Positions 1 through 25,943 of a stretch of DNA of 29,387 bases are shown one piece after another. Origin of the DNA: a virus; the IMG/VR virus record IMGVR_UViG_3300009605_002899, positions 1-29,387 of that record; one strand, written 5' to 3'. The notes beneath the pieces are model-generated. The model saw only the letters and a program-made list of their open reading frames with translations. It searched no databases and was not told where the DNA came from. Numbering within the stretch: position 1 is the first letter of the stretch; each line of letters starts with the position of its first letter. The position numbers were made by a program, and so were the translations under genes.

Positions 1-824
1 CCCTTAACTATCCTAGAGTACTTATCAAACTCACAAAGCCCTCCCTCTATTTCACGCATTTCATAAGGTCGATTGATTAATATCCATTTGTCTAGTCTTT
101 GTATAACCGTTTTATACAAAACATTCATTTCTTTATTCCAATCGTGGCTACGTTTACAAAAACCTAACTCACGACCAGTTAGTCGGTTGAGTCCTCGCAT
201 TGCTCCTGGACCAGCATTAGCCCATGTCACTATATCATTAGCATTTTTTAGCAAGTACGTGTGTCTTAAATCAGTCACTACTTCATAAGCCATGAACGGC
301 CCCATGTAAGGGTAATCTCTAAGAAGTTTCCATGTCTCCTCTAGGTTCATGTTTTCGCTAACGATCTTATTAACAAGTATTTCTCTATCGTTCCACATGT
401 GTGAGATACACTCAGCCACACCCGAAACCTTATCCATACCGTTGGGTGTTTTAATAATATAAGCACCTGTAACCCATTTAGGCTGTTTGGTAATCTCTTC
501 GATAGCCTTTTTTCTATCCCAGTTTTGGATTAAATCATTCTTTATTAGAGTTCTACCTGTCTCAATAAAATTAAACCATCGAAAGATAACCGTAGCCATA
601 AGTACACTTGGGTCATCCTTCAACGGTTCTCTAATATGTTCTCTAAACCACCTAGTAGTTCTGTCGTCTTCTCGAAATACCTGACAAAACTTGAACTGTC
701 GTAAAATAGGATTACCTGTCCAGGGAGGAGGCTCTTTCTGTACTTCCTTTCTAATACGGATTCGCTCTCTTTCCTCTTGCCAATAGCAATAATTCTCTAT
801 CTCATCTTCAAGAAACTTTACCAT
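1..824 (-). CDS. HMUDK/aGPT-pyrophosphorylase helical-family protein, 3' end missing
   Basis: The gene starts with ATG at 824 and stays open to the left window edge, so the C-terminus is missing; 274 residues are visible. They carry what I recognise as the family's hallmarks: PPPWTGNPIL near residue 33, then RQFKFCQVFREDDRTTRW, a FRWFNFIETGRTL helix, YPYMGPFMAYEVVTDLRHTY, the PGAMRGLNRLTGRE segment, and LCEFDKYSR near the visible end. The family (5-hydroxymethyl-dU DNA kinase helical domain / alpha-glutamyl-putrescinyl-thymine pyrophosphorylase) takes part in hypermodification of thymine in phage DNA. No P-loop kinase domain is visible, so a stand-alone pyrophosphorylase-type member is likelier than a kinase fusion, though a domain could lie beyond the edge. 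ATG overlaps the stop of the methyltransferase gene (TAATG), indicating translational coupling. Family placement is fairly sure; the exact reaction is inferred. Confidence 0.75.
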   Translation of the reverse strand, partial: MVKFLEDEIENYCYWQEERERIRIRKEVQKEPPPWTGNPILRQFKFCQVFREDDRTTRWFREHIREPLKDDPSVLMATVIFRWFNFIETGRTLIKNDLIQNWDRKKAIEEITKQPKWVTGAYIIKTPNGMDKVSGVAECISHMWNDREILVNKIVSENMNLEETWKLLRDYPYMGPFMAYEVVTDLRHTYLLKNANDIVTWANAGPGAMRGLNRLTGRELGFCKRSHDWNKEMNVLYKTVIQRLDKWILINRPYEMREIEGGLCEFDKYSRIVK

Positions 825-1672
825 TACTTTTTCCACAACACCCAAGAACAGTTATTGGAGTACTCAGGAAAAGGAGCAGCAGCAACTACACGTAGAAATT
901 GCCTACCGTATCGGGATTCCAGTAGTTCTAATTGCTCAGGCGACCAAGGATGTTTTTGACATTTCGCCTCTCTCATTGCTTTTCTTAGCTTAGGTAACTG
1001 TATAAAAGTCCCTGTAACGCTTTGAATAATGAAGTTTCTTTGTAGTTCCTCTTTAAGTTCTTCAAACCCCCACTCATAGACATGGTCTTCAGGTAGTTTA
1101 TCATTAGAGCCGTCGTGGTTAGGACAAGAGACAAACGCTAATGCATGGGGTTTCATTACTCTAGCTGCTTCATCTAGCCAAGGCCCAACAAACTCTCTAC
1201 CCATATGTTCAATAACTTCAGTAGTCCAGAACAGGTCTATTGATTCACTAGGGATGTCCAAAATAGGGTTAACGGTTACATCTTGTATTCTGATCTCACC
1301 ATTAAAATTCTTAAACCAAGTTGAGTCTTTTAACAATCCTCCTGAATTAGACCAGAAAGGGTTTTCCATTTCGCAAGCAGGGTCTATGTCGTAACCTGTA
1401 TAAGAAGCAATGACATCGGATTTCTTTATAACGTAGGCTTTGTATAGATTCCTCAGAACCCAACACTCACCACATCCCACTTCAAGGGTGTTTAATGGTC
1501 TGCCGAGTCGTTTAGCTTCTTCGATACATAAAGTAGCTATCTTATCGTAACGGCTCATATGAGCTAGTTCATCAGGTCTCCAATTAGCTAGTACTCCAGC
1601 ACTGGCTATGTTCATTCTCGTATTTTTACTGTCATTTTCATTAACAGTAAGTTTCTTTCTGATTGATGACAT
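824..1672 (-). CDS. Class I SAM-dependent methyltransferase
   Basis: This 282-aa protein has a Rossmann-type methyltransferase core: motif I LEVGCGE at about residues 63-69, an acidic end of strand 2 in YTGYDID, and the IDLFWTTEVIEHMG segment followed by DEAARVMKPHALAFVSCPN, typical of class I enzymes. The substrate is not evident; neither a DNA adenine motif (DPPY-like) nor a cytosine-C5 PC motif is seen, so small-molecule, protein or modified-base targets are all open. An upstream in-frame ATG at 1693 lies inside the previous gene; ATG at 1672 is preferred because it forms a TAATG junction with the upstream stop. The stop likewise overlaps the start of the putative thymine-hypermodification gene, so the two enzymes are probably made together and may share a pathway; that link is inference. 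Confidence 0.8.
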   Translation of the reverse strand: MSSIRKKLTVNENDSKNTRMNIASAGVLANWRPDELAHMSRYDKIATLCIEEAKRLGRPLNTLEVGCGECWVLRNLYKAYVIKKSDVIASYTGYDIDPACEMENPFWSNSGGLLKDSTWFKNFNGEIRIQDVTVNPILDIPSESIDLFWTTEVIEHMGREFVGPWLDEAARVMKPHALAFVSCPNHDGSNDKLPEDHVYEWGFEELKEELQRNFIIQSVTGTFIQLPKLRKAMREAKCQKHPWSPEQLELLESRYGRQFLRVVAAAPFPEYSNNCSWVLWKK

Positions 1673-2217
1673 TATTGATTTGCCTCCCACCAACTTGGTT
1701 TATTCCTTCCCTTTTCCCACTTAGCGTAATGTTTTTCATTGATAACGTAGTTACGATAGGCAAGAACAGAGTCCTCATTCTTATACTCATCGGGCATGGC
1801 CTGAGCTACATCGGTCATAAGCCCTCTAGTAATTCGTTTAGGCATTAAGTACAGGGCATCCGCTAGATCTTTAACAGTGCGATGAGTTCGTTTATAGCGG
1901 TAGGTGTATTCCTTACCTAGAGCTAGAAAATGCTTATAAAGCCACCAGTAGTTACCACTACACTCTCTAACCCAGACACTACACGGATGGTTTATGTGAC
2001 AAACTTGGTATAAAACGTCTTCACGTTTATCAGGTAAAGTCCACGCTTTAACCATGGTTTTACCTGACTTAGAAGGTTTACGGATTTCCCAACCGTCAAG
2101 AATCCGATGAGCTGTTGAAAGCATCTGTGCAGACTCAAGTATCATTTTAACCAACATCTTATCAGGCTGTGCCTTCGCAGAAACTGTAGGGTCTTCGCTG
2201 AGATAGAATATGTTCAC
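1672..2217 (-). CDS. Conserved phage protein of unknown function (NIFYL...DPxxxAxxxxDK family)
   Basis: A 181-aa protein starting with GTG at 2217 (mature start MNIFYLSEDPT). A longer frame open to 2277 exists, but an AAAGGAG ribosome-binding site lies six bases upstream of the GTG and the residues before it are a lysine-rich run with no family resemblance. The sequence (DKMLVKMILESAQMLSTAHRILDGW, HINHPCSVWVRE..YWWLYKHF, EYTYRY, MPDEYK, AYRNYVINEKHYAKWEKGR, ending in PSWW) resembles proteins I recall from many marine phages and cyanophages, usually left unnamed. It is rich in conserved His, Trp and Tyr, suggesting an enzyme or nucleic-acid-binding fold, but I assign no function. It is coupled by TAATG to the downstream methyltransferase. 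Confidence 0.75.
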   Translation of the reverse strand: MNIFYLSEDPTVSAKAQPDKMLVKMILESAQMLSTAHRILDGWEIRKPSKSGKTMVKAWTLPDKREDVLYQVCHINHPCSVWVRECSGNYWWLYKHFLALGKEYTYRYKRTHRTVKDLADALYLMPKRITRGLMTDVAQAMPDEYKNEDSVLAYRNYVINEKHYAKWEKGRNKPSWWEANQ

Positions 2218-2223
2218 TTTTTT

Positions 2224-2230
2224 CTCCTTT
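2224..2230 (-). promoter_or_regulatory. Ribosome-binding site that sets a GTG start
   Basis: AAAGGAG on the minus strand, followed by six A residues and GTG at 2217. It is the reason for choosing this start over an in-frame start 60 bases upstream. Confidence 0.7.
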
Positions 2231-2289
2231 CTTTTAACACATACGCTAGTACCTTTATACTTTACTTTTATATGCAAAGTAAAGGACTT

Positions 2290-3786
2290 TCATAGTTGAT
2301 AGCAGCGCGGCGATTTAGGCTCAATTAAGTACAAGTTTTCTTTAGTTCTGGTTATTCCAACATAAAAAACTCTGTTTTCATCATCGGGGTTTTGCTGATA
2401 GTTTTTATAGACTCGAGTTGTTATGTCTGTTAACAAGACAACGTTAGTGGCTTCACCGCCCTTAGCAGCGTGTATGGTTGATAAACGTATCCTTGGCTGC
2501 TTAGTTATCTTCTCTCCTCTACGTAACATTGCTCTTATGTAACTAACCTCACTGGGACTTAATAAAGTAAAAACGTCATACCAATGTCCGTCTGGTAGGT
2601 CAGGAAAATGGCTTTTAAGATCTTGGTACTGTAGTGTTAGTGCAGAGTCCAGTAAATCTAGCTTTTTAGGTTTCTCTACTTTTATGTATTTCAGTATGTT
2701 AGCGCACTCACCTAAAGTAATGCTCTCTCCCTTCGATAAATGTTCCCAAAAAACAACAGCTCTGACTTTTGCCTCTGAAATGCTTGGCCTACCTTTTACT
2801 TCAAAAAACCACCCCTCGTTTCTACAGTACTCATCAACCGCCTCCAGTAAGTAGTTCGTTCTAGCTAAGACTAGCCAATCTCCTTTCTCCATATTAACTA
2901 GCTCTATGGTTGGTTCCCAACGCACCACTCCTTCCTCTTTTCTAGGTGTCCACTCCTTATAGATCCTGGATCGAACTTGTCCTATACATTGGGTGGCTAA
3001 TTCGTGAACTGCTGCAGGGACTCGATAAGATTGTTTAAGCACCATAGCGTTTTTAGAGTTATCTATCAGGTAGTCGACATCAGCTCCTGCCCATTTATAA
3101 ATAGCTTGGTCGTCATCTCCTGCTACATAGATCTTTGTAGACCTTTCGGCAAGTTTACGAACTACCGACCATTGCAAAGGGGACAAGTCCTGAGCTTCAT
3201 CTACAAACATAACATCTAGTGAAGGAATATCGCCTTCATGCAAAAACTTATAGAGCATGTCGGTATAGTCCACGAGCAGTCTGTCTTTTTTAAATAGCTT
3301 CAGACCTCTGGCGAATCGCTCTAATTCAAACCAACCAACAGCATCTTCAACCTCGTGCCACTGCTGCTCTAACGGTATGTTACGCATCCTAGCAAGATTC
3401 TCTATAAAAGCTAATCGATCATCGTGCGTCATGCCAAATAGATGCCCATCATCTGATGTAGTTCTACCGCTTAGTCTTATGTTTAGTTTTTCGTTTAGGT
3501 CTTTTATATCTGTATGACTTACCACACTTTCTCTAGTTAATCCTAGTTGTCGAAACGCTAATGAATGTAATGTTCTAAAGAAAGGTAAGCTTCTATCACT
3601 TATATTGAATTTACTTATGGCTCTTTGTTTTCCTTCTTTTACTGCTTTTTTGGTAAACGTAAAGAACCCTATATTCTCAGGCTCTGTTCCACTTTCTAGT
3701 TCATCCTCTATAAGACTAAGTAATGTGCTTGTTTTTCCTGTCCCAGGAGGTCCAAGAATAACTTGTGTATGGCTCGGTAAGGTCAC
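2290..3786 (-). CDS. UvrD/PcrA-type superfamily 1 DNA helicase
   Basis: A 498-aa ATP-dependent DNA helicase. Motifs appear in order: Walker A GPPGTGKT at residues 12-19, motif Ia FFTFTKKA, Walker B FVDEAQDLSPLQW near residue 195, motif III GDDDQAIYKWAGAD, motif IV LKQSYRVP, motif V STIHAAKGGEA and motif VI RVFYVGITRTKENLYLI. It is shorter than cellular UvrD (about 720 aa) and has reduced 1B/2B domains, as in compact phage helicases. It starts with GTG at 3786 overlapping the TGA of the AlkB-like gene (GTGA), so it is translationally coupled. Its place after the primase suggests a role in phage replication or recombination. Confidence 0.93.
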   Translation of the reverse strand: MTLPSHTQVILGPPGTGKTSTLLSLIEDELESGTEPENIGFFTFTKKAVKEGKQRAISKFNISDRSLPFFRTLHSLAFRQLGLTRESVVSHTDIKDLNEKLNIRLSGRTTSDDGHLFGMTHDDRLAFIENLARMRNIPLEQQWHEVEDAVGWFELERFARGLKLFKKDRLLVDYTDMLYKFLHEGDIPSLDVMFVDEAQDLSPLQWSVVRKLAERSTKIYVAGDDDQAIYKWAGADVDYLIDNSKNAMVLKQSYRVPAAVHELATQCIGQVRSRIYKEWTPRKEEGVVRWEPTIELVNMEKGDWLVLARTNYLLEAVDEYCRNEGWFFEVKGRPSISEAKVRAVVFWEHLSKGESITLGECANILKYIKVEKPKKLDLLDSALTLQYQDLKSHFPDLPDGHWYDVFTLLSPSEVSYIRAMLRRGEKITKQPRIRLSTIHAAKGGEATNVVLLTDITTRVYKNYQQNPDDENRVFYVGITRTKENLYLIEPKSPRCYQL

Positions 3787-4379
3787 AAACCACTTCTAAA
3801 AGTTAAGCTAATTCGACTTTCACAACCAATTAAAGCAGGAATAGAATGGGTTGCTGTCATCTGAGAATGGCCATCGAACATATAAACATCTCCTTCTTCT
3901 AACAAGAATCGAGTTGTTTCTGGTATGTATCGTTCACTAAGTTGTTCTTGATCAACCCATAGTTCACTTGTATTAGTCTCGGGCTTTATAGGAACATTAT
4001 ATTCATTCCACTCAAAAACTCTAGTTCCACCGAATGAGATACCTAGAACAACATCATCCAGCGTAGGGACTGTGTCAGAATGATGAGGGACAAAAGCTTC
4101 TCCTGTTTCATAAAGACCACATAAACAGAAAGTAAATTCAATAGGTCTATCCATCATTGTAGAAGCCCATTCTTCAGCTTTATTCTTAATTTGCTCCATA
4201 GACGGTGTCCAAGGGTCAGGAGTGTAGAGCTTTCCTGCGTAGTTAAATTCTGACACTCCATAGCCTTTTGTTGGCCTACCGTAAACAGTTTTCCCCTTGA
4301 AGACTCTAACCTTTGGTCGATCCCAAGTGGTGATATTAGGATCATCATCCTCGAATACTTCCTTAGCAAAACAAGTCAT
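3783..4379 (-). CDS. AlkB-like 2-oxoglutarate/Fe(II) dioxygenase
   Basis: A 198-aa protein with the complete AlkB-type cofactor set: iron ligands H100-x-D102 (PHHSD), strand LGISFGGTRVFEW, the TTRFLLEEGDVYMFDG hairpin, distal iron ligand H178 (TATHSIP) and 2OG-binding arginines in SRISLTFR (R189 and R195). AlkB enzymes oxidise N-alkylated bases in DNA or RNA; other branches hydroxylate or demethylate different substrates. The start overlaps the primase stop (ATGA) and the stop overlaps the helicase start (GTGA), so it sits in the middle of the replication operon, suggesting that phage nucleic acid is its substrate. Repair of alkylation damage is the simplest reading; tailoring of a modified base is the alternative. 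Confidence 0.85.
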   Translation of the reverse strand: MTCFAKEVFEDDDPNITTWDRPKVRVFKGKTVYGRPTKGYGVSEFNYAGKLYTPDPWTPSMEQIKNKAEEWASTMMDRPIEFTFCLCGLYETGEAFVPHHSDTVPTLDDVVLGISFGGTRVFEWNEYNVPIKPETNTSELWVDQEQLSERYIPETTRFLLEEGDVYMFDGHSQMTATHSIPALIGCESRISLTFRSGL

Positions 4380-5913: not shown

Positions 5914-6687
5914 TTAGATAATGTCGTTAGTAGTATCATTTTGCTGTTCTTGCTTTACCTCAACGTTTCCAGACCTAGCTGCAGACATAAAGTCTCTAGC
6001 TATCAAAGCATTACTTATTTCTGTTGGCCCTTCTTGGTTAATACTGTAAGAGTTCCAACTACCTTTGTCATTAGACATTACGGTTGAGGTTAGCCTGTAG
6101 GTAAATGCAAACATCGGGGCTTCTACCGAATCCCCCTTAGAGTTTTGTACCCTAGCCATTCTTAACATCGTTAGCCATTTTCTAGCAACACCTAACTGTG
6201 TAGAGGTGAGAGCAAGAACTGCTTGCTGAGGAGCACCTTCAGAAACTATAAGCACGAAAAACTGAGCTGTTTCTACAATCTCATTACCCGCTGGAGTGTA
6301 GTTCCTTCTGTTTTCTGGGTCTCTTGTACAGGTAGTCAAGATAGAAATATCATGGTTAGCATTAACAAGTCCACCACCCTTTTCTCTGGGAATCCACTCA
6401 ATATACTTCTTATTATAGGCACAGGGAACTATCAAGATTCCTTTCTCTCCGTTATAGGCATCTCCTGTAACCGTATTATAAAGGTCTCCTGAACTAGCGT
6501 TTTCCACATAGCTTCCATGTTGTTTTTGTAGTTGAGGTGATAGAGGTTGTAAAACCCTAATGAAAGGTATTGCGAAATCCTCTGCGGTTGTTTCCTCTAA
6601 CCCGGTGCCACCTGATAATAAATCATCATTAAATGAGGTTAGTGCTGTAGTCTTAGAGTGAGCTACTTCCTTTTTATCTTCTGCCAT
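5914..6687 (-). CDS. Conserved phage early protein, possible ssDNA-binding or recombination protein
   Basis: A 257-aa protein with a low-complexity start and an acidic/glutamine-rich tail (VKQEQQNDTTNDII). The middle (AEDFAIPFIRVLQPLSPQL, GDLYNTVTGDAYNGEKGILI, VPCAYNKKYIEWIPRE, LTSTQLGVARKWLTML) resembles proteins I recall in marine podoviruses, found next to the same small partner gene seen here at 6692-7270. A beta-rich core and flexible acidic C-terminus would fit a phage single-strand-binding protein such as T7 gp2.5, but no diagnostic motif proves this. The start is supported by AAGGA eight bases upstream. Its place just before the primase supports a replication role. Confidence 0.7.
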   Translation of the reverse strand: MAEDKKEVAHSKTTALTSFNDDLLSGGTGLEETTAEDFAIPFIRVLQPLSPQLQKQHGSYVENASSGDLYNTVTGDAYNGEKGILIVPCAYNKKYIEWIPREKGGGLVNANHDISILTTCTRDPENRRNYTPAGNEIVETAQFFVLIVSEGAPQQAVLALTSTQLGVARKWLTMLRMARVQNSKGDSVEAPMFAFTYRLTSTVMSNDKGSWNSYSINQEGPTEISNALIARDFMSAARSGNVEVKQEQQNDTTNDII

Positions 6688-6691
6688 GGTG

Positions 6692-7270
6692 TTAATCCTT
6701 CTTAATTATAGCTTTAGTACCTATGTAGATACCAAAAGGCTCTGTTGGTATGTCATTCCCCGAAGTAAACTGCTCTTTAATAAAAGCTCTTAGTGTGCTT
6801 GGGTGAATGCTCTGACGTACCTCTGGTGATAGTCCTCTGGACTGTAAAGCTGAAACAGTTTGGTTAACTACCTCAGTTTCTTCACGTCCAAACTTTAAAA
6901 GAACTTCATTCTTTATGAGTCCTTCATGTCCATTAGACACTAACCATTCATACGCTTTTTCTTGGTTTGCTTTAGAGATGTGAGCCTTATAAAACTCATT
7001 AATAGAGATTTTCTCCCCCGTACTGAGCGTTATTTGAGTGAGCCCTGCAGCTTGCATTGCGTCAGGTAACTCTTGCTCCGAAGTCAAACGAAGCTCTTCT
7101 TTTTTAGCTTTTAAATTAGCTTCTAACTCTGACACCTGTAGGGCGAGTTCTAACTGTTTATTAGCTAAACCTGAAACTACAGAGAGTTCTCCATCAGTAA
7201 CATCATTAGTCCACTCTTGAACATCTTTTGTACCGACTAAGTCTTCAAAGGTTGGTTTCTTCTGATCCAT
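6692..7270 (-). CDS. Conserved phage early protein with coiled coil, function unknown
   Basis: A 192-aa protein. Residues about 35-70 (LELALQVSELEANLKAKKEELRLTSEQ) form a likely coiled coil; the rest (STGEKISINEFYKAHISK, AYEWLVSNGHEGLIKNEV, LKFGREE, HPSTLRAFIKEQF, EPFGIYIGTKAII) resembles a small conserved family in marine podoviruses paired with the downstream 257-aa protein. An AAAGGAG site six bases upstream supports ATG at 7270, so the gene overlaps the previous one by 26 bases. A DNA-binding or single-strand-binding accessory role is plausible from context only. Confidence 0.75.
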   Translation of the reverse strand: MDQKKPTFEDLVGTKDVQEWTNDVTDGELSVVSGLANKQLELALQVSELEANLKAKKEELRLTSEQELPDAMQAAGLTQITLSTGEKISINEFYKAHISKANQEKAYEWLVSNGHEGLIKNEVLLKFGREETEVVNQTVSALQSRGLSPEVRQSIHPSTLRAFIKEQFTSGNDIPTEPFGIYIGTKAIIKKD

Positions 7271-7589
7271 CTATTTCTCCTTTCTTATGTAAATCAATAT
7301 CAACAGGGTAATACATACCCTCTTGCCTATCCCATTTCAATATACTATAGCTACCTCTATTATAAAATGCAGCGATAGAACACGCCACTCCTATAGCAGC
7401 AGGATCCCCTATCAGTAATAGGTAATCCCCTGTCTTATAGTCGTGTAGAATACTTTTCATTCTGCGAACTGAGGGAGATGCACTTAGCATAATTTGTGCA
7501 TTAGAAGGTAACAGAACTTCAAAATCACCATACTGCCTAGCAGAAGCGATATTTCGTCCGGGAACCTCCTGTACGACATAGACTGTCAC
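7245..7589 (-). CDS. Conserved phage early protein, function unknown
   Basis: A 114-aa protein and the first gene of the leftward early operon. It starts with GTG at 7589, supported by GGAG six bases upstream. The pattern YVVQEVPGRNIASARQYGD..VLLP, then DYLLLIGDPAAIGVACSIAA and SILKWDRQEGMYYPVDIDL, resembles a small family common in marine phages. The GDPAAIG loop and conserved KWDRQ give no clear function. It is the gene closest to the candidate minus-strand promoter at 7628-7656 and is thus probably among the first transcribed. Confidence 0.75.
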   Translation of the reverse strand: MTVYVVQEVPGRNIASARQYGDFEVLLPSNAQIMLSASPSVRRMKSILHDYKTGDYLLLIGDPAAIGVACSIAAFYNRGSYSILKWDRQEGMYYPVDIDLHKKGEIDGSEETNL

Positions 7590-7627
7590 TATTTTCTCCT
7601 TTCTTATTTCTTATTTCTAGTAAATAA

Positions 7628-7656
7628 ATTTTATATATGAGTAAGGACAAAGTAAA
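7628..7656 (-). promoter_or_regulatory. Candidate sigma70-type promoter for the leftward early operon
   Basis: On the minus strand, TTTACT (7651-7656) is followed by a 17-base spacer and TAAAAT (7628-7633), about 40 bases upstream of the first early gene. The match is 4/6 and 5/6 to the consensus. The region is very AT-rich, so chance matches are possible. Confidence 0.45.
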
Positions 7657-7691
7657 GCCCTATTGCCGATATGTGTTTTTTTAACTAAAAA

Positions 7692-7717
7692 AAGTTTTCT
7701 AAAAAAGTTTTCTAAAA
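7692..7717. repeat. Two tandem copies of a 13-bp AT-rich repeat
   Basis: AAGTTTTCTAAAA occurs twice back to back at 7692-7704 and 7705-7717, in the intergenic control region between the two divergent transcription units. It could be a protein-binding site or a bent A-tract region; it codes for nothing convincing. Confidence 0.6.
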
Positions 7718-7801
7718 CTACTAATAACTCTAATAAAGTAATACTGATCCTAACGAAACGTAGAGTCTTAGGGACTATACCAATATTAGAGGGCATGGAA
7801 G

Positions 7802-7835
7802 AACTATTAGTTTGGGCTATAAAACTATTAGTTTG
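7802..7835. repeat. Twin palindromic repeats, candidate operator
   Basis: AACTATTAGTTTG occurs at 7802-7814 and again at 7823-7835, exactly 21 bp apart. Each copy contains AACTA-T-TAGTT, an inverted repeat of 5-bp arms around one base. Palindromic sites two helical turns apart on the same DNA face, directly upstream of a possible -10 box, look like operator sites for a dimeric regulator. No regulator gene is seen in the window. Confidence 0.55.
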
Positions 7836-7840
7836 TAATA

Positions 7841-7846
7841 TATAAT
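7841..7846 (+). promoter_or_regulatory. Candidate -10 box upstream of the SNF2 helicase gene
   Basis: TATAAT lies 27 bases before the ATG at 7874, immediately after the twin palindromic repeats, which would cover the -35 region. No good -35 hexamer is present at 17 bases, so the promoter may need an activator or may not be real. Confidence 0.35.
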
Positions 7847-7873
7847 CTCACTTAGAAATTAGAAAGGGTTAGT

Positions 7874-9316
7874 ATGAAATATAAGTTTAAGACACAGCCA
7901 TATGAGCATCAGCTCGTGGCATTAACTAAATCCTGGAATCAGCGTGAGTACGCTTACTTCATGGAAATGGGTACTGGAAAGTCTAAAGTACTCATAGATA
8001 ACATAGCTATTCTCTATGACCGGGGAGGGATTAACGCTGCAATTATTATTGCTCCTAAAGGCGTGTACCGGAACTGGTCTGAAAAAGAGATACCGGCACA
8101 TATGCCAGACCATGTAGAAAAACAAATAGCGGTCTGGAATCCAGCGCCTAATAAAAAACAGAAGAAAGCATTACTTGATCTATTCGAGGTAACGGCTGAC
8201 CTAAAGATATTGGTTATTAATGTTGATGCTTTTAGCACTAAGAAGGGAGTAAACTTTGTAGAAAAGTTTATTCTATGTAATGATGTACTAATGGCGGTTG
8301 ATGAATCAACCACTATTAAAAACCCCAAAGCCCAACGCACTAAGAACCTCTTAAAGCTTGGGATTAATACCAAGTTTCGTAGGATTCTAACGGGCTTTCC
8401 TGTTACTCAGTCTCCTTTAGATTTATATAGTCAAAGTGCTTTTCTATCTAAGAAACTATTAGGTTACGATTCTTTCTACTCTTTTCAAAACCGTTATGCA
8501 AAACTTTTTAATAGAAAGATGGGGCAAAGAACCTTTAGACAAGTTACGGGGTATCAAAACCTAGGAGAATTAACTACTCGACTTGGTAATTTTTCTTACA
8601 GAGTGCTGAAGAAAGAATGCTTAGACCTCCCTGATAAGGTGTATCAAAAAAGAGAAGTCCCACTAACACCTGAACAGAAAAAGGTTTATAAGGAACTAAA
8701 AGACTATGCAATGGCTGAACTAGAGTCTAAAGAAATGGTCAGCGTTACTTCTATCCTTACTCAGATACTAAGATTACATCAAGTAGTTTGTGGGTTTGTA
8801 AAGCATGATAACAACGAAGAAGTGGAGATTAAAAACAATCGGTTAGATGCTTTACTAGATGTCCTAGCAGAAACACAAGGTAAAACAATCATTTGGGCGA
8901 ACTATCGTTACGATATTAGACGCATACTAAAGACGCTGCAAAACACAGTAGGTACTGAGAACGTTGCTACTTATTATGGGGATACGCCTGATGAAGAAAG
9001 ACAGAAAGTAATTACCAAGTTCCAAGACCCTGATTCAAACTTACAATACCTAGTTAGCAATGTGCAAACAGGTGGGTACGGTATCACATTAACACAAGCT
9101 AGTAATGTTATCTATTATTCTAACAACTATGACTTAGAGAAACGTCTACAGTCCGAGGATCGTGCTCATCGAATAGGACAAACTAATAAAGTTACCTACA
9201 TAGATCTTGTTTCTAAAGGCACTGTTGATGAAAAGATTGTAAAAGCTCTGCGCAATAAGTTAGACCTAGCCCAAGAAGTCTTGGGTGACGAAAAATGGAA
9301 AGACTGGATAAGTTAA
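7874..9316 (+). CDS. SNF2-family DEAD-like helicase/ATPase
   Basis: A 480-aa superfamily 2 SNF2-type DNA translocase and the only clear gene on the plus strand. Motifs: Q-like PYEHQLVAL at residues 9-17, Walker A MGTGKSK with K36, Ia IIAPKGVYRNW, motif II LMAVDES (DES in place of DEAH), motif III LTGFPVT, IV IIWANYR, V NVQTGGYGITLTQAS and VI SEDRAHRIGQ. It has the compact two-lobe form usual for phage and prokaryotic SNF2 enzymes, without accessory domains. AAAGGG sits shortly before ATG at 7874. The gene is divergent from the early operon, and its stop overlaps the last codon of the convergent virion-protein operon by 4 bases. A role in phage recombination, replication restart or DNA remodelling is inferred. 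Confidence 0.92.
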   Translation: MKYKFKTQPYEHQLVALTKSWNQREYAYFMEMGTGKSKVLIDNIAILYDRGGINAAIIIAPKGVYRNWSEKEIPAHMPDHVEKQIAVWNPAPNKKQKKALLDLFEVTADLKILVINVDAFSTKKGVNFVEKFILCNDVLMAVDESTTIKNPKAQRTKNLLKLGINTKFRRILTGFPVTQSPLDLYSQSAFLSKKLLGYDSFYSFQNRYAKLFNRKMGQRTFRQVTGYQNLGELTTRLGNFSYRVLKKECLDLPDKVYQKREVPLTPEQKKVYKELKDYAMAELESKEMVSVTSILTQILRLHQVVCGFVKHDNNEEVEIKNNRLDALLDVLAETQGKTIIWANYRYDIRRILKTLQNTVGTENVATYYGDTPDEERQKVITKFQDPDSNLQYLVSNVQTGGYGITLTQASNVIYYSNNYDLEKRLQSEDRAHRIGQTNKVTYIDLVSKGTVDEKIVKALRNKLDLAQEVLGDEKWKDWIS

Positions 9317-18546: not shown

Positions 18547-18576
18547 ATTATATATCAAAAAGTGTATACCTTTAAA
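18547..18576 (-). promoter_or_regulatory. Candidate promoter for the virion-protein operon
   Basis: On the minus strand, TTTAAA (18571-18576), an 18-base spacer and TATAAT (18547-18552) lie at the end of the cyclase gene and 76 bases before the 35-aa gene. This is the largest gap on the minus strand apart from the early control region. The -35 match is weak (4/6), the -10 is perfect. Confidence 0.4.
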
Positions 18577-20327
18577 GGTTTTTCTTTTCCCTTTACATAC
18601 ATTGGCTCAAGTTGCCTTAGCTGATATCCGCACAAACTTTCAGTGCTTTCTCCGATCAATACATCGGTCCCTGCTTCTTTTGTCCCACTTTCTAAGCGAG
18701 CTGCTGTGTTGACTGCATCACCAATCGCAGTATAATCAAATCTTGTATCGCTTCCCATATTGCCAATCACCGCTTCTCCTGTATTCACACCAATACCTAT
18801 GGCAATAGGAGGCAACCCTTTAGCTTGTAGTTCTATGTTTAAATCAACCATGTTTTGCCAAATGTCTTTAGCACAGGTTACTGCTATATTGGGATGATTT
18901 ACTAGGTCTATTGGTGCATTGAATATTGCCATCATTGCGTCTCCAATATACTTGTCGACCATGCCTCCGTGCTTTTGCACAGCTGCCTGTTGTGCAGTAA
19001 GAGCTCTATTCATGATATAAGTCACTTGTTCAGGTGGTAAGCTTTCTGACATAGAAGTAAATCCTCTAACATCAGTGAACAAGAAAGTAGCCGTTTTCTT
19101 TTCTCCCCCTAGTTTTAATAAATCAGGGTTATCCTGCAAACGTTTTACCTGTCTAGGGTCTAGGTAGTGCTCAAACTGTTTCTTTATCTGCTGCCGTAGT
19201 AAGTACTGTTCCCTAAAGTTAAACCAGAACTGTTCCCCGGATAACAACAACAACGACACCCCAGACCACGTTACATCAATTAATTGATTATTACGAATAA
19301 AATATAAGCCCAATAGCACCAAACCACTCAACATCCCACCTACAAAAACAGCTGACCAAACTACGCTACACCTACGGAGAACTAAAACAGTAGTAATACA
19401 AAGAGATAGTAGAATTAATAGTTCATACAATAACCGGTTCGCAGGAATACTAGGGCTATCAGGTAAGAGTAAGCTCTCAGCTAAAGCAGCTTGTATATAG
19501 TGGGGGTTTAATAAACCAGCAGGCGTAGCCAACTGTGGCATTATGCCTGCAGCACTTGTTCCTACAAAAACAAACTTACCTTCTACCTGTGGGTCTTGGT
19601 ACGAAACTGTAGGGGTATCCACCCAAGAGACCCACTTTCGTCCAAACCTATCTGTAGGAATTACCCCAAGTGCCGGTATTCTAAGGCTTTCAATGCCTCC
19701 TTCATTAGTCCGTATTTGGTAAGTTCCTTCCCCTGTAAGAGCTTTTAACACTTGAGTAGCAAAAGAAGCAACCCAACCGTCAGGAGCTCGAGAAATAAGA
19801 GGAATCTGTCGTATAAGGTTATCTACATCAGTAGGAGCAGAAACAGCCCCCTGTAAAGCGGCCTCAGTTAGTTGCTCTATGTTTAAAATAAACCCATTTG
19901 CAGGGCTATAGTTAACAGGATCTTCGCCAAGAATAACCGTTCCATGTGGTGGAGGATATTGTTCATTAGAAAACTCAGGCATAGCTAATACATTAATTCC
20001 CTGAGTTAGGCTTGTAGCAAAAGCTTCATCCCCACCAAAACGATCTGGTTGAGGGAATAAAACTACCCAACCTACTCCCAGAGCACCTCGAGCCATAAGC
20101 TCATTTTGTAATGTAGCTAAGGTTTGGCGGGGGAAAGGCCAACCTCCTTCTCTTGCTATATCTTCTTCAGTTATATCAAGAACTACAAAATGCCCGGATG
20201 GAGTAGGTTGAGTAATAAACGCATCAAATGTTTTAAGTCGGAGCACCTCTAATGCAGACCAGTTTAACAACAAAGGCAAAGCTAAGGCTGCACCAGTAAG
20301 TAACCCAACTTTTGTACCTAATTTCAT
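18555..20327 (-). CDS. CHASE2-domain membrane sensor with class III adenylate cyclase
   Basis: A 590-aa membrane protein. It has an N-terminal membrane segment (residues about 7-23), an extracytoplasmic CHASE2-type sensor region (about 30-300, with FDAFITQPTP, VVLDITEEDIAREGGWPFPR and GKFVFVGTSAAGIMPQLATP), three closely spaced transmembrane helices (about 310-380) and a cytoplasmic class III cyclase domain (about 410-590). Catalytic residues are present: metal aspartates D419 (FTDVRGF) and D463 (DKYIGDAMM), adenine-selecting K459 and D531 (DYTAIGD), and transition-state N540 and R544 (VNTAARLE). It should therefore make cAMP from ATP in response to a periplasmic signal. The ATG overlaps the stop of the upstream curlin-type gene (ATGA). 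In bacteria, CHASE2 cyclases often neighbour FecR-domain genes, as here; in a phage it is unexpected. Confidence 0.9.
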   Translation of the reverse strand: MKLGTKVGLLTGAALALPLLLNWSALEVLRLKTFDAFITQPTPSGHFVVLDITEEDIAREGGWPFPRQTLATLQNELMARGALGVGWVVLFPQPDRFGGDEAFATSLTQGINVLAMPEFSNEQYPPPHGTVILGEDPVNYSPANGFILNIEQLTEAALQGAVSAPTDVDNLIRQIPLISRAPDGWVASFATQVLKALTGEGTYQIRTNEGGIESLRIPALGVIPTDRFGRKWVSWVDTPTVSYQDPQVEGKFVFVGTSAAGIMPQLATPAGLLNPHYIQAALAESLLLPDSPSIPANRLLYELLILLSLCITTVLVLRRCSVVWSAVFVGGMLSGLVLLGLYFIRNNQLIDVTWSGVSLLLLSGEQFWFNFREQYLLRQQIKKQFEHYLDPRQVKRLQDNPDLLKLGGEKKTATFLFTDVRGFTSMSESLPPEQVTYIMNRALTAQQAAVQKHGGMVDKYIGDAMMAIFNAPIDLVNHPNIAVTCAKDIWQNMVDLNIELQAKGLPPIAIGIGVNTGEAVIGNMGSDTRFDYTAIGDAVNTAARLESGTKEAGTDVLIGESTESLCGYQLRQLEPMYVKGKEKPLKVYTF

Positions 20328-21112
20328 TGATCAAATTGATTAATTGTTACAGTTTTGTTACAGCTTGAAGTGCAATCAAACGTTACTGTGTAGTTCTTTA
20401 CGTCGGTTCCGGTTTGCGTTGCATTTACAGTGTAGTTCCCTTGCTTAACAAGGATATTGCCAACGTGTGCACCGTCACCACTTTGCGTTAAGTTGACCGT
20501 GGAGTTGTCAGCAGGATTATTCCTGAATTCAATATCCCCATCTTTTGCTCCACTACCGCTCTGCGTAATGGTCGCATCATTGTTATTACAATTTCCACAA
20601 GACTTAATGTAAGCATTGTGGTTTCCAGAACCTGATTGCGTAGCAGTCCATGTGCTGTCATCCCCAAAGGCATAGAATTTGGCATAGTGATTTCCGCTCC
20701 CGGTCTGACTGATTGTATACACGTTATCATCCCCAGACATGTATATCTCACCATGGTTATCACTGCCTGTTTGAGTAACGATCATTTCATTTGAGTCCTG
20801 ATCTGCATCTATGTAGCCAGTATTGTCATTTCCCGTTTGTGTAATCGTATATTCATTAGACTGATGGTTCGTATATTGAGAATAGGCTTTAGCCAGATTG
20901 TCATCACCGTTCTGGTCAATATCAATGGTGGCACTGCTACAGGTATGAGTCGTATAAGTTCCGTTAGAGAGTCCACACCAGACACGCGCCGTATTGCCGG
21001 TTCCTATTTGGTCAATATAGATACTGGTATTTGTCCCTTTGGTATCTATCTCCACAGAATTGTTAGCGGCAAAAACAGGAAGACTAATTAGACTGATTAA
21101 TGTATATCGCAC
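20324..21112 (-). CDS. Secreted curlin-repeat (amyloid-type) protein A
   Basis: A 262-aa protein starting with GTG at 21112 behind a strong GGAGGAGGGG site. A short signal peptide (MRYTLISLISLPVFA, cleavage after residue 15) precedes about nine or ten imperfect curlin repeats, each with a core like YTITQTGNDN, MIVTQTGSDN, YTISQTGSGN or VNLTQSGDGA, spaced about 22-25 residues. CsgA and CsgB of enteric bacteria have five such repeats of the SxxxxxQxGxxNxA type, so this is a longer relative. Six cysteines occur in the mature part, including CGNC and CTSSC, unlike enteric CsgA. It overlaps the FecR gene by 29 bases and the cyclase start by 4. It is predicted to be exported and secreted through the CsgG channel to form cell-surface or virion-linked amyloid fibres. 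Confidence 0.88.
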   Translation of the reverse strand: MRYTLISLISLPVFAANNSVEIDTKGTNTSIYIDQIGTGNTARVWCGLSNGTYTTHTCSSATIDIDQNGDDNLAKAYSQYTNHQSNEYTITQTGNDNTGYIDADQDSNEMIVTQTGSDNHGEIYMSGDDNVYTISQTGSGNHYAKFYAFGDDSTWTATQSGSGNHNAYIKSCGNCNNNDATITQSGSGAKDGDIEFRNNPADNSTVNLTQSGDGAHVGNILVKQGNYTVNATQTGTDVKNYTVTFDCTSSCNKTVTINQFDQ

Positions 21113-22163
21113 TGTCCCCTCCTCCGTTTATTTCTGCTTGTATTTTTACCCCCGCAGTCATAATATCGATTTTATAAGGCGAAGCTTTGTCCAATTCTAG
21201 ATCAATCGTGTTCTCTACTTCTCGGACAAAGAACAAACTAGCCCCATCGGTAAACGTATAGACTTGTAATTCCTGATCAAACCCTGCAACTACTCCTTCG
21301 ATTTGCACTCCATCAAGCTCATAAACTTTCGCGTCTTTTCTAGAATCAGATATTTGAACTAAAAGATCTCCTAAAAAATCCGCAGCTAAAAGATCAATAT
21401 CCAACCTGCCCATATCTTCTTCGAGTGCATCTTCATCAAGTTCATTCTCATCTAGCTCCGTTTCTTCTAGAAGATCAACGTCCAATATATTGCTAGGACT
21501 ACTTGCTTGTTCCTCTACAGCCTGTTCTATTTCATCTGGGGGATTTACTATAAGTAGGTTATCTATAAAACCCAAAGTCATTCCCTGTAGTAAAACAGGA
21601 GGCGTAGGGGGAGTTTCTGACACACTAACCATGGTAGCTTGAAAAGGCTCGTTCATGACCACTACCCCTGCTTGAGTAGTCACGGTTATTTCACCACTAG
21701 ACGTGCCATCAGCTTGAGGCAATAGAATAACTAAAGACCTTCCTAGCTCATCAACCGTTGTCGTAAAATCCGTTCCACGAATCGCAATCGTAGCACTTGG
21801 AGTTCGAATAGAAATGTTTTCTCTATTTATTCTACCCAACGCTCCCGTAACAAAACGCGCTGTACCACTAACCATTTCAAGAGCCATTCGGCTTTGGCTC
21901 GGATCTGGGTCAAAGATGTATTCGTCGATAATAACTTTAGAGTGTTCAGTAAGCCTAACAATAGAAGAATCAAGAAACTCAATACCGATACGACCGTTAC
22001 CAGTACGGACATCATCGTAACTAAGGATGTCTAAATTAGCTTCTGCTGATATGCTGCTGGATTCGCTATCCCGTAAAACTTCTCCATTACCCCTTAGCTC
22101 AGTGATTAAACCAACTTGAGCTTGTGTAACAAGGGGTAGAAACGCTAACAACCAGAAGTACAT
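21084..22163 (-). CDS. FecR-domain exported protein with curlin-like C-terminus
   Basis: A 359-aa protein. A signal peptide (MYFWLLAFLPLVTQA, cleavage after residue 15) is followed by a FecR domain at about residues 18-170, including GNGEVLRD, DDVRTGNGRIGIEFLDSSIVR and SIRTPSATIAIRGTDF. A proline-rich linker, an acidic run (residues about 228-255, ELDENELDEDALEEDMG) and a beta-rich C-terminal region follow. The last residues, DSAIYINQSN, look like half a curlin repeat. FecR domains act in periplasmic signalling or bind envelope polymers. It overlaps both flanking curlin-type genes (19 and 29 bases). Possible roles are amyloid nucleator, anchor, or the ligand seen by the CHASE2 sensor; which one is unknown. 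Confidence 0.85.
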   Translation of the reverse strand: MYFWLLAFLPLVTQAQVGLITELRGNGEVLRDSESSSISAEANLDILSYDDVRTGNGRIGIEFLDSSIVRLTEHSKVIIDEYIFDPDPSQSRMALEMVSGTARFVTGALGRINRENISIRTPSATIAIRGTDFTTTVDELGRSLVILLPQADGTSSGEITVTTQAGVVVMNEPFQATMVSVSETPPTPPVLLQGMTLGFIDNLLIVNPPDEIEQAVEEQASSPSNILDVDLLEETELDENELDEDALEEDMGRLDIDLLAADFLGDLLVQISDSRKDAKVYELDGVQIEGVVAGFDQELQVYTFTDGASLFFVREVENTIDLELDKASPYKIDIMTAGVKIQAEINGGGDSAIYINQSN

Positions 22164-22861
22164 TGATCTATGTCAATCACGCCGCCTGTCGTAATAGCAA
22201 TAATATCAACGACTCCGCTTACGCTACCTGTTGAATTAGTTTGGTCGATGTCAATATTGTTCGTTGATCCTGTTATATCTGCCGTGATTGAATGCGACTG
22301 GTTTCCGGTTTGTGTCGTATCAATATCATTACTCGAGCCATCTACGTCCCAATTATTTACCGCAGAAACTACCTCTGAGGTGATGTTTAGGTCATTACTT
22401 GTACCGGTAATTACTACATCGGTGTTCCCGCTGGTGGATGAAGCAGCTCCGCCCTGTACGTAGGTAAGCGCGTTGCTATCCCCGGTTGCACCAAAATCGA
22501 AATCTGTTCCTTGTACATCACCAGTTCCGCCTAGAGTGAGGCTCTGGGTATTACTATCCCCTGTGCTTCTCAGCGTAAAACTTGTTGAATTTCCTTGCGC
22601 TACGCTACCAGTAATAATGTTGTTATCACCTACCTGATCAACATCAACAGTCATAGACGTACCAGCTAAAGAGACCCTAGCGTTTGCCGCTGTGCCGACT
22701 CTATTTCCTGAACCAATTTGGTCGATATTCATAGTAAGGGCGGATGACCCACCACTTTGCGTTAAATATATCAATTGGTTACTAGCTGTAGCTGAAATTA
22801 AATAGGCGAGTGAATACAACAAAACTAAATAGACGCAACAACTTTTAATCAAGAGCCTCAT
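22145..22861 (-). CDS. Secreted curlin-repeat (amyloid-type) protein B
   Basis: A 238-aa protein with a signal peptide (residues 1-26, ending SATA) and a mature region rich in Ser, Thr, Gly, Asn and Asp. Curlin-like cores are visible: QLIYLTQSGGSSA, MNIDQIGSGN, VDVDQVGDNN, IDTTQTGNQS and IDIDQTNSTG, with degenerate repeats between them (FTLRSTGDSN, FDFGATGDSN, VVITGTSND). It ends in DIDQCTSGC, giving a C-terminal cysteine pair. It starts 17 bases inside the end of csgG with a near-perfect ribosome-binding site, and overlaps the FecR gene by 19 bases. It is probably the second fibre subunit; whether it is the major one (CsgA-like) or a nucleator (CsgB-like) cannot be told from sequence. Confidence 0.85.
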   Translation of the reverse strand: MRLLIKSCCVYLVLLYSLAYLISATASNQLIYLTQSGGSSALTMNIDQIGSGNRVGTAANARVSLAGTSMTVDVDQVGDNNIITGSVAQGNSTSFTLRSTGDSNTQSLTLGGTGDVQGTDFDFGATGDSNALTYVQGGAASSTSGNTDVVITGTSNDLNITSEVVSAVNNWDVDGSSNDIDTTQTGNQSHSITADITGSTNNIDIDQTNSTGSVSGVVDIIAITTGGVIDIDQCTSGC

Positions 22862-23669
22862 TTTGCACCTCCTGTGGAGTATAGTCCCACATCTCTTGCT
22901 CTATACCTTGACGTACTAGCTCTAAAACCGCTGCTTCGATGGCACTTCTAACAGCATAGGTAGCGGTTTCATTCCTAGCTGTTCCTGCCTCGATCTCTAT
23001 TAATGCCGTGCCATCCTCCGTAAACCTAAATGTATCAAATCCTGTTGAAGTTGAATAGACTTGCTTAGTAGTAATTACGTTTAAAAGCACCTGTCCCGTC
23101 TGTACTAAGACGGCTCTAAGCCCTACTGTGACCTCATCTACTCGGTATTGAGTACTAGTACCTACCCCTAAGTAACGAGCTCCTATACCTCCGCTAATTA
23201 GGTTTGTGTCATACCCAATAATTCCTCCGGTTAATAGTATACCAGAAAAGAGTAAAGGTTCTAATTGATTCGGTCCTTCTCCGTCATAAGTGTTTCTTGT
23301 TGATATAATCAACTGTCTTTCACGGGTAAGTGATTCTAAATTTCCACGTTCTGCAACTAAAAACCACGTCCCTCTCCCCGCAGACATTAATGCATCAATT
23401 AAAAAAGAATCTGCTCCTTGTGTTACAGCTGTAGAAAACAATGCCATGTTATCGGTGGTAGCTCTTTGTCCCGTAAGGTCAAGAAAGTTATAAACGGATA
23501 CCACAGCCTTTTGCCGTGGCATAGGTAAATTAACAAGTTCTGTAAGAGTTGGTCGCTCTACTCGTGGTTCCGGTGAACAATAGTTAGAAAGAGTGCCGCA
23601 ACGATAGGGATCAACGCTTACACATCCCGAGACTGTAAGCGCCAGAGCGAATAAGGTTAGAGAGCGCAC
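22845..23669 (-). CDS. csgG: CsgG-type curli secretion channel lipoprotein
   Basis: A 274-aa protein, close to the 277 aa of the E. coli CsgG precursor. A signal peptide with lipobox VSGC gives a lipidated C16. Family segments are present: AVVSVYNFLDLTGQ, then FSTAVTQGADSFLIDAL, WFLVAERGNLESLTRERQLI, GGIIGYDTNLISGGIGARYL, STQYRVDEVTVGLRAV and GIEQEMWDY near the end. CsgG forms an outer-membrane nonamer that secretes curlin subunits. Compared from memory with E. coli CsgG, the constriction loop before FSTAV is one residue longer; the conserved Phe is kept but the Tyr and Asn are not. The gene starts with GTG at 23669 inside the end of csgF (13-base overlap) with no clear ribosome-binding site, so it is coupled. 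Confidence 0.95.
   Translation of the reverse strand: MRSLTLFALALTVSGCVSVDPYRCGTLSNYCSPEPRVERPTLTELVNLPMPRQKAVVSVYNFLDLTGQRATTDNMALFSTAVTQGADSFLIDALMSAGRGTWFLVAERGNLESLTRERQLIISTRNTYDGEGPNQLEPLLFSGILLTGGIIGYDTNLISGGIGARYLGVGTSTQYRVDEVTVGLRAVLVQTGQVLLNVITTKQVYSTSTGFDTFRFTEDGTALIEIEAGTARNETATYAVRSAIEAAVLELVRQGIEQEMWDYTPQEVQNEALD
22866..22873 (-). promoter_or_regulatory. Near-perfect ribosome-binding site for curlin-repeat protein B
   Basis: AGGAGGTG on the minus strand, six bases (counted from AGGAGG) before the ATG at 22861, placed within the last codons of csgG. It is the strongest such site in the curli-like block and suggests that this subunit is made in larger amounts than the channel. 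Confidence 0.75.
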
Positions 23670-24217
23670 TCGTCTGTACTACAGATGCCAAATGATCCAA
23701 CGGGTATGCGTATCTCCGTAATGCCTCCGTCAAGATCCGTCACTAAAAGAACAATCTCTGTACCCGTATTGATAAAACTAATCTGATTGCCTTGTAAATC
23801 AAAGACCCCTCCGGAGCCGCCACTCTCGCTATTAAAAAGAGAGTTGGCTAAATCCTGTGAAAGTTGAGCAAAGATACGGCTTTCCAGGTTTCGTACAAAC
23901 TTAGCTAGTGTTGTGTTTTCTTGTTCTCTAATTACGTCCTCTGCCCTAGACTCAAGGTCTTCTAGAATTCCTTGTTTACGACTCCTTTCTTGTTCATCAA
24001 TAGTGAGGTAGTGGGCAGACTGGCCCATGCCACTAAACGAGGGGTTACTAAATTGGAAAGTTAAATCAGTCGCTACAGCAGTATTTATAACCATGCCTAG
24101 AAAAACGATCGCTGCAACCACGATTAATATTTTAGCTATTAGAGTTTTTTCGTCCTCTCTTTTCTTGAGTTTTTGTTCCGCTTTGCTTAGTTTGCTTAGT
24201 TTCTTTTGAGTAGTCAT
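23657..24217 (-). CDS. csgF: CsgF-type curli assembly protein with N-terminal extension
   Basis: A 186-aa protein. After a hydrophobic segment (residues 27-49, ending NTAVA) comes DLTFQFSNPSFSG, the CsgF hallmark at the mature N-terminus, followed by a helical region (residues about 75-130, TLAKFVRNLESRIFAQLSQD) and a beta-rich end, as in E. coli CsgF (138 aa). CsgF caps the CsgG channel and helps attach fibres to the surface. Odd features are a 26-residue Lys-rich extension before the hydrophobic segment, which could make it a membrane-anchored protein or a signal peptide with a long n-region, and a C-terminal cysteine pair (CSTDEC). The start at 24217 is backed by AGGAG and lies 86 bases inside the upstream membrane-protein gene. 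Confidence 0.87.
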   Translation of the reverse strand: MTTQKKLSKLSKAEQKLKKREDEKTLIAKILIVVAAIVFLGMVINTAVATDLTFQFSNPSFSGMGQSAHYLTIDEQERSRKQGILEDLESRAEDVIREQENTTLAKFVRNLESRIFAQLSQDLANSLFNSESGGSGGVFDLQGNQISFINTGTEIVLLVTDLDGGITEIRIPVGSFGICSTDECAL

Positions 24218-24455
24218 TTTGCGTCTCCTGCTCTTTTACTTGCAATACCGTGTTAACCTTTTGCTGTAATCGAATCATATCTTGATCTAAAAGACGTAAT
24301 TGATCAGTTAAACGTATAATAGTTCCCTTCATTTCTTGTATAGCTGGATCTATTGTGTTCGTTATAGTTTGCCAAACAAAATAAACGAAATAACCTAACC
24401 CTACCACCATCACCACAGGAAAGCCAAACTCTGCTATGAGTTGTGCAATGTCCAC
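24132..24455 (-). CDS. Small holin-like membrane protein (107 aa)
   Basis: One N-terminal transmembrane segment (residues about 10-30, FGFPVVMVVGLGYFVYFVW) is followed by a helical, possibly coiled-coil part (MIRLQQKVNTVLQ) and a Lys-rich C-terminal tail. The layout resembles the upstream 98-aa protein, so the two may be duplicates. It starts with GTG at 24455 in a TAGTG junction with that gene. Such single-span phage proteins are often holins or holin accessories, but no specific family is certain. The last 86 bases also encode the start of csgF in another frame. Confidence 0.75.
   Translation of the reverse strand: MDIAQLIAEFGFPVVMVVGLGYFVYFVWQTITNTIDPAIQEMKGTIIRLTDQLRLLDQDMIRLQQKVNTVLQVKEQETQNDYSKETKQTKQSGTKTQEKRGRKNSNS
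24225..24229 (-). promoter_or_regulatory. Ribosome-binding site for csgF inside the upstream gene
   Basis: AGGAG seven bases before the ATG at 24217. It supports this start and therefore the long overlap between csgF and the preceding membrane-protein gene. Confidence 0.65.
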
Positions 24456-24751
24456 TAATCTCTCCTAGCATCGATCTTCCCATCTTCTACAAAATTTTCT
24501 GCTCTAGCTATTCTGTCTAGATCAGGAGATAAATTTAACACACTCGAAACGCTAGTATCTATTCGTATTATGTCATTATTCATAATAGAGGCTCTTGTGA
24601 TTAACATCTTAGTTATGGCTTGAACTGTCTTAATTTCACTAACTAGACCATCCATAAGCTGTTTCATCACTAAAAAGATAAAGTAAGCCATGATTAAAGC
24701 ACCCGCGATAGGAACACCTACTTCAGAAATTAATGCAAAACCCTGTTCCAT
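24455..24751 (-). CDS. Small holin-like membrane protein (98 aa)
   Basis: It has an N-terminal transmembrane segment (residues about 9-29, EVGVPIAGALIMAYFIFLVM) and a helical, polar rest ending in an acidic/basic mix. It shares the pattern of hydrophobic N-terminus with YF in the span and a helical C-terminus with the next gene, suggesting a tandem duplication. AGGA lies six bases before the ATG at 24751, and the gene overlaps the previous one by 22 bases. A holin or holin-antiholin pair is plausible, but the function is inferred from topology only. Confidence 0.75.
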   Translation of the reverse strand: MEQGFALISEVGVPIAGALIMAYFIFLVMKQLMDGLVSEIKTVQAITKMLITRASIMNNDIIRIDTSVSSVLNLSPDLDRIARAENFVEDGKIDARRD

Positions 24752-25647: not shown

Positions 25648-25943
25648 TAGCACTTCCACCTTTTTCTTGCTTGCCGTAGTCTTGACTTAGGATTTTTAGC
25701 TGCTTTAGGAAACTTCTTCATTTGCCCTGCTGATCGAGCACAGTAAGACTTTCTCCTTTTTGCTGCCTTGCTTCCTTTTTTAACCTTGCCCGTAACCGCT
25801 GTCTTTAACTTAGATCCAGGATTTGCTTTACGATAAGCAGCAACTCCTTTTTTAGTCATTCCCGCCCCTTTCTTAGTGGAACGATAATTTGCTCCCTTCC
25901 CCTTAGTGGTGCGTCTTATAGACTTTTCTTTTCTTTTAGCCAT
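25647..25943 (-). CDS. Small basic phage protein (DUF6321-like)
   Basis: A 98-aa, Lys/Arg-rich protein with KKGVAAYRKANPGSKLKTAV and GSKAAKRRKSYCARSAGQM near the middle and a C-terminal RKRWKC. I recognise this as a type common in phages (DUF6321-like), often near virion or lysis genes. It probably binds DNA or another polyanion, perhaps inside the capsid. It is coupled to both neighbours by TAATG junctions. Confidence 0.8.
   Translation of the reverse strand: MAKRKEKSIRRTTKGKGANYRSTKKGAGMTKKGVAAYRKANPGSKLKTAVTGKVKKGSKAAKRRKSYCARSAGQMKKFPKAAKNPKSRLRQARKRWKC

Follow-up and report, generated by a model that had tools for sequence, protein, structure and literature searches.

The window analysed here, the 29,387 nucleotides at positions 1 to 29,387 of the IMG/VR virus record IMGVR_UViG_3300009605_002899, probably ends inside a three-gene thymine-modification module. 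In this module, genes for a SAM methyltransferase, a PF18723 protein and a thymidylate synthase (TS)-family hydroxymethylase precede the gene for the DNA polymerase PolA, and by means of it 5-hydroxymethyl-dU (5-hmdU) would be made, incorporated and tailored. The methyltransferase and PF18723 genes are found at the left edge of the window, and the TS-family and PolA genes lie past that edge. Judged from homology and gene order, a genome modification based on 5-hmdU is very likely, and it is likely that the methyltransferase takes part in it, with O-methylation as a tentative proposal for the tailoring chemistry.

The ORF at 3-845 on the minus strand, whose C-terminus is cut by the contig end, had been placed in the HMUDK / aGPT-pyrophosphorylase group by a first-pass annotation of the sequence, and the Pfam search bears this out. 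The ORF matches PF18723 (HMUDK_hel / aGPT-Pplase1) with 146.9 bits (E 9.9e-43; cut-off 25 bits), which as a sequence match is far beyond chance, and it also matches PHROG 2396 (E 2.5e-61). Since residues 17-279 cover profile positions 5-274 of 281, the domain is essentially complete, and comparison with the 301-315 aa of full-length relatives puts the C-terminal loss at only about 25-35 residues. The ATG at 824-822 is a likelier start than the TTG at 845. Residues that are invariant in the family (e.g. GPF, GPG and LCExxKYxR) are kept in an alignment with the proteins of M6, Ab18, Pam3, RHph_I65, LuckyBarnes, Chepli and S118. By tblastn, the closest annotated relatives belong to Pseudomonas phages of the Epa5/PaMx11/Ab18 type (43-45% identity), and gp55 of Pseudomonas phage M6, representing the M6-type phages, is 38% identical.

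The fold of the PF18723 protein was examined with an AlphaFold model of a full-length relative (L001), which reaches a mean pLDDT of 74.5, a moderate quality, and varies among the five models produced. This moderate-quality model resembled the HhH DNA glycosylases NTHL1 (Z 9.1), MutY (Z 8.9) and MjOgg (Z 8.3) and, with Z 6.5, PUGT (8z2n), the PaMx11 enzyme acting on 5-phosphomethyl-dU; Foldseek gave no match for it at E <= 0.001. A fold like that of HhH DNA glycosylases is suggested by the model, and we treat it as suggestive only. The one sequence match to a solved structure, a stretch of YoeB (E 0.012), was judged to be due to chance.

The first-pass annotation had also coupled this gene to a SAM methyltransferase, a link that the sequence upholds. 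Directly upstream of PF18723, at 824-1672 on the minus strand, lies a class I SAM methyltransferase gene with Methyltransf_23 and Methyltransf_11 matches above the Pfam cut-offs (30.5 bits for Methyltransf_23). The two genes meet in a TAATG at 822-826 (minus strand), where the TAA stop of the methyltransferase gene has one base in common with the next ATG, the likely PF18723 start; such overlaps were found in 75 of the 86 distinct methyltransferase-PF18723 junctions of relatives. The methyltransferase model is Rossmann-like (mean pLDDT 78.6) and resembles many small-molecule methyltransferases, DNA not being singled out as a substrate. Its only sequence match to a solved structure, to TAL-effector repeats, was again dismissed as chance. 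A further possible member of the module is the adjacent gene at 1672-2277 (minus strand), a PHROG 624 'DNA binding protein' with a weak Pyr_excise match, which lies just upstream of the methyltransferase gene in part of the relatives.

To follow the module beyond the window, we took advantage of 16 related IMG/VR records that extend leftward. In these, PF18723 is followed by a TS-family gene, often with a 73-aa ORF between them, and then usually by two small ORFs and by PolA, a family A DNA polymerase. Where the sequence upstream of PF18723 reached 1.3 kb or more (72 loci), the methyltransferase gene was always present there. Where 1.5 kb or more was available downstream of the methyltransferase gene (78 loci), PF18723 always came after it, within 150 bp in 73 of them, and where 2 kb or more was available downstream of PF18723 (80 loci), the TS-family gene always came next; the loci of these separate scans partly share contigs, and the relatives are metagenomic records whose sampling is weighted to close ones. 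The order methyltransferase-PF18723-TS is invariant in the pelagiphage relatives, and the order PF18723-TS-x-y-PolA is common to the relatives and to M6, Ab18 and Pam3.

The TS-family protein of these relatives showed 38% identity (146 bits) to the dUMP hydroxymethylase gp29 of SPO1, its nearest biochemically known relative among those compared, against 27% identity (58 bits) to E. coli ThyA, and it scored far below every NCBI thymidylate-synthase cut-off. Its best relatives with solved structures are chains of the CMP hydroxymethylase MilA. Residue 177 (E. coli numbering) sets dUMP specificity in the TS family, Asn177 being the dUMP type (PMC8670742), and Asn occupies this position in all 16 pelagiphage proteins. 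At position 147 the pelagiphage protein has Asn, as does SPO1 gp29, whereas ThyA has His147. An FSDDG stretch replaces the Trp80 region of ThyA, but loss of Trp80 carries little weight as a hydroxymethylase marker since it is not general, T4 gp42 being aligned with a Trp there. We read the TS-family enzyme as a dUMP hydroxymethylase, an activity predicted from these similarities.

The methyltransferase is the most informative gene of the module, as its linkage to hydroxymethylase genes recurs in phages that are unrelated. Among cultured or complete phages, relatives of it were found in ct3Et533, AXL3 and PW916 only. In the two of these that were examined closely, AXL3 being one, it stands at the head of an operon that continues with an NTP pyrophosphohydrolase, a thymidylate-kinase-like enzyme, a TS/pyrimidine hydroxymethylase gene and a dCMP deaminase. 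Outside the pelagiphage clade, a TS-family gene was near 56 of the 63 scored IMG/VR methyltransferase relatives, exactly three genes on in 37; 17 of the 80 distant loci were left out of this count because a simple gene caller had lost the methyltransferase ORF, probably to longer overlapping ORFs. All 67 TS-family proteins from the distant loci have Asp177, the dCMP type. The dUMP-type neighbours in pelagiphages and the dCMP-type neighbours elsewhere together indicate that one methyltransferase family accompanies both types of hydroxymethylase. In loci L280-L359, from many uncultivated phages, genes for the methyltransferase, NTP pyrophosphohydrolase, dNMP kinase, an Asp177 TS-family enzyme and a dCMP deaminase stand in a single row, which is likely to be a cytosine-modification operon.

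The gene content, gene order, homologies and residues described above fit a scheme of which we infer the reactions, their order and the product. The TS-family enzyme would hydroxymethylate dUMP, cellular kinases would convert the product to 5-hmdUTP, and the phage PolA would insert 5-hmdU, which would replace the thymine partly or completely. The PF18723 protein, which has a putative glycosylase-like fold and no recognised kinase beside it, would then bind and perhaps flip out 5-hmdU, and the coupled methyltransferase would modify the base, in the simplest case by O-methylation to 5-methoxymethyl-dU. The outcome would be a genome protected against host restriction.

An alternative scheme has 5-hmdU as the final base, as in SPO1, with the PF18723 protein only binding or guarding it and the methyltransferase, merely co-expressed, having RNA, protein or a small molecule as its substrate. 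The similarity of the TS-family protein to an SPO1-type dUMP hydroxymethylase, the general fold matches of the methyltransferase and the module loci devoid of kinase, transferase or glycosyltransferase relatives all agree with it, and overlapping genes in a constant order can stem from a shared time of expression rather than from a shared reaction. We nevertheless regard it as unlikely, since plain 5-hmdU probably does not need PF18723, of which SPO1 is not known to have an obvious copy. Moreover, the methyltransferase accompanies PF18723 and TS in the relatives without exception, and it also goes with hydroxymethylase operons in phages that lack PF18723.

A DNA kinase would be expected if the module worked by the classical M6/ViI pathway, and this is where the module departs from the earlier proposal. 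The first-pass annotation had named a hydroxymethylase and a P-loop kinase as the partners to look for to the left, and had held that a genome with neither would speak against modification; the relatives supplied the hydroxymethylase type in 80 of 80 loci, but of the two partners it was the only one. The 5-hmdU DNA kinase profile PF18748 found the M6 control and no match in 16 plus 20 related records, and the amino acid:DNA transferase profile PF18724 found the M6 and Ab18 controls and no match in the 36. The Ab18 kinase as query gave no match in the first 16 records, nor did the general kinase profile PF13671 in the last 20, all of which contain PF18723. Relatives of the HMUDK kinase, ADDT, PLP and radical-SAM enzymes were likewise absent from the pelagiphage module. 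These absences rest on metagenomic records of unproven closure, although 19 of the 20 in the second set are 58-84 kb (most 58-67 kb) and several are larger than the mean genome published for HTVC023P-type phages, 58.8 +/- 2.5 kb (PMC9599517). A kinase of another family was also considered and set aside after the negative PF13671 and Ab18 kinase searches, absence in open records being no proof. So was a ViI-type domain architecture: the PF18723 protein of S118 has 402 aa but no clear kinase motif, and its long branch makes its placement unsure.

The classical pathway could still operate if its kinase and amino-acid transferase were host-encoded or too divergent to recognise. Components of the M6/ViI pathway have orthologues here in PF18723 and the TS-family enzyme, and the nearest kinase-bearing relatives, those of the Ab18 group, form a sister group. 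Besides the profile results, however, a Walker A scan of the ORFs in the G003, G009 and G007 stretches found the UvrD helicase and, as the sole short-motif P-loop outside it, one in a long tail-like protein of G007, and phages normally encode their hypermodification enzymes themselves, so that this explanation seems improbable. Equally hard to sustain is the absence of any base modification, with the TS-family gene encoding a normal thymidylate synthase for dTMP and PF18723 being a repair glycosylase or a relic: phage TS genes without modification are common and the PF18723 model may resemble repair glycosylases, but the TS-family protein lies under all the thymidylate-synthase cut-offs and nearer to SPO1 gp29 than to ThyA, agrees with the SPO1 type at positions 147 and 177, carries the FSDDG stretch, and accompanies PF18723 in every locus scored, while the highly conserved residues of PF18723 argue against a relic.

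In its widest form, the proposed involvement of the methyltransferase in 5-hmdU tailoring would make it a member of a widespread family of hydroxymethylpyrimidine-DNA methyltransferases. Such a family would act on 5-hmdU in pelagiphages, where PF18723 would present the base, and on a 5-hmdC-type base in AXL3-like phages, yielding methylated hydroxymethyl bases (e.g. 5-methoxymethyl-dU). We offer this as a speculative extension, somewhat less secure than O-methylation itself. Under such a reading, PF18723 would be an exchangeable adaptor for kinases, glycosyltransferases or methyltransferases.

The gene beside PF18723 does vary among diverse loci, being a kinase, a glycosyltransferase, a radical-SAM enzyme, an FkbM methyltransferase or a methyltransferase of the pelagiphage type. 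The pelagiphage-type methyltransferase (14 records) and the kinase (12 records) occurred together in none of 53 distinct records (Fisher p 0.023, uncorrected for kinship). In a tree of 61 PF18723 proteins, those accompanied by the methyltransferase did not all group together: the pelagiphage clade (100/99) and L212 lie apart, with a strongly supported branch between them. L212 has the methyltransferase, PF18723 and Asn177 TS-family genes in a row at 6159-8841 on the plus strand; identity is 56% in the methyltransferase but no more than 34% in the PF18723 protein, and L212 offers the strongest independent instance of the module outside the pelagiphage clade.

Other loci show further combinations. 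In L214, L218 and L032 (Microbacterium phage Chepli), PF18723 stands alongside TS-family enzymes with Asp177, the dCMP type, and its range may thus extend beyond bases derived from thymine. L224, L225 and L227 have PF18723 without a recognised kinase, adjoined by radical-SAM or FkbM methyltransferase and glycosyltransferase genes, and possibly represent further undescribed tailoring routes; L224 and L227 adjoin the pelagiphage clade in the PF18723 tree.

Outside the module, the window encodes the thermonuclease mentioned in the first-pass annotation, an SNase at 25222-25659 (minus strand; Pfam E 1.6e-14); the idea in that annotation that a modified genome could be spared from this enzyme drew no support from the analysis. 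An AlkB-like 2OG-Fe(II) oxygenase gene at 3783-4379 (minus strand) lies between the primase and UvrD-helicase genes and is kept in many relatives. A small ORF at 25943-26152 (minus strand) ends in a run of 11 lysines and adjoins a very basic ORF at 25647-25943. A curli (T8SS) module occupies 18555-24751 (minus strand) with genes for CsgF, a CsgG-like protein, two curlin-repeat proteins, a FecR-like protein and a CHASE2 adenylate cyclase, of which the CsgF and CHASE2/cyclase domains were found by Pfam and the others were assigned from ORF order and sequence. Its order agrees with that given for pelagiphages in PMC9599517, CsgF-CsgG-CsgA/B-FecR-CsgA/B-adenylate cyclase.

Among the closest known systems are the pathways of M6 and of the Abidjanvirus/PaMx11-type phages, made up of a 5-hmdU hydroxymethylase, the HMUDK kinase, PF18723, ADDT and tailoring enzymes. 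Their PF18723 and TS-family genes are orthologous to those of the module and adjoin PolA in an identical order. M6 DNA contains 5-(2-aminoethyl)-dU (5-NedU) (PMC6449724). In M6, with single-gene roles taken from Pfam names and secondary papers, gp54 (the HMUDK 5-hmdU kinase) directly precedes gp55 (PF18723), gp51 is the amino acid:DNA transferase and gp58 the TS-family protein, and Ab18, Pam3 and RHph_I65 have the same gene order. The difference is that in M6 and Ab18 the kinase occupies the place of the pelagiphage SAM methyltransferase. Brevibacterium phage LuckyBarnes also combines PF18723 with an Asn177 TS-family enzyme and has no recognised kinase in the stretch read, but its module (PF18723, two glycosyltransferases, TS, PolA) contains glycosyltransferases and no methyltransferase. 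In Stenotrophomonas phage AXL3 a related methyltransferase heads the hydroxymethylase operon, and its DNA is restriction-resistant: only 2 of 37 enzymes cut it, both with A/T-only sites, and 35 were resisted (PMC7504290), a pattern that fits modified cytosine. Unlike the pelagiphages, AXL3 has a dCMP-type hydroxymethylase and no PF18723, and the AXL3-type methyltransferases are only 26% identical to that of the pelagiphages.

Another close system is that of the HTVC023P-type pelagiphages, which according to PMC9599517 have TS and aG/PT-PPlase1 genes near PolA, a curli module and a 2OG-Fe(II) gene. Both the order of the curli module and the TS/aG/PT-PPlase1 pair near PolA match, and the window phage and these pelagiphages almost certainly belong to the same phage group. 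For clades V, VIII and IX of the HTVC023P type, a role of this pair in thymidine hypermodification has been proposed in that paper, whose passages on the pair are silent on the absence of kinase and transferase; a methyltransferase is named nowhere in its text. Few ocean viruses are as abundant as the HTVC023P-type pelagiphages. A kinase-free thymine modification in them, if true, would mean that much of the marine phage population carries an undescribed base in its DNA, with consequences for restriction, for sequencing and for the role of PF18723, whose function has so far been tied to a kinase. The chemistries listed for hydroxymethyl bases include glycosylation, amination and carbamoylation (PMC12783734, 2025), our literature search found no O-methylated hydroxymethyl base, and O-methylation, if true, would be a tailoring chemistry outside that list. 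What is new relative to these systems is the kinase-free, methyltransferase-bearing form of the module together with the family-wide link of the methyltransferase to hydroxymethylase operons.
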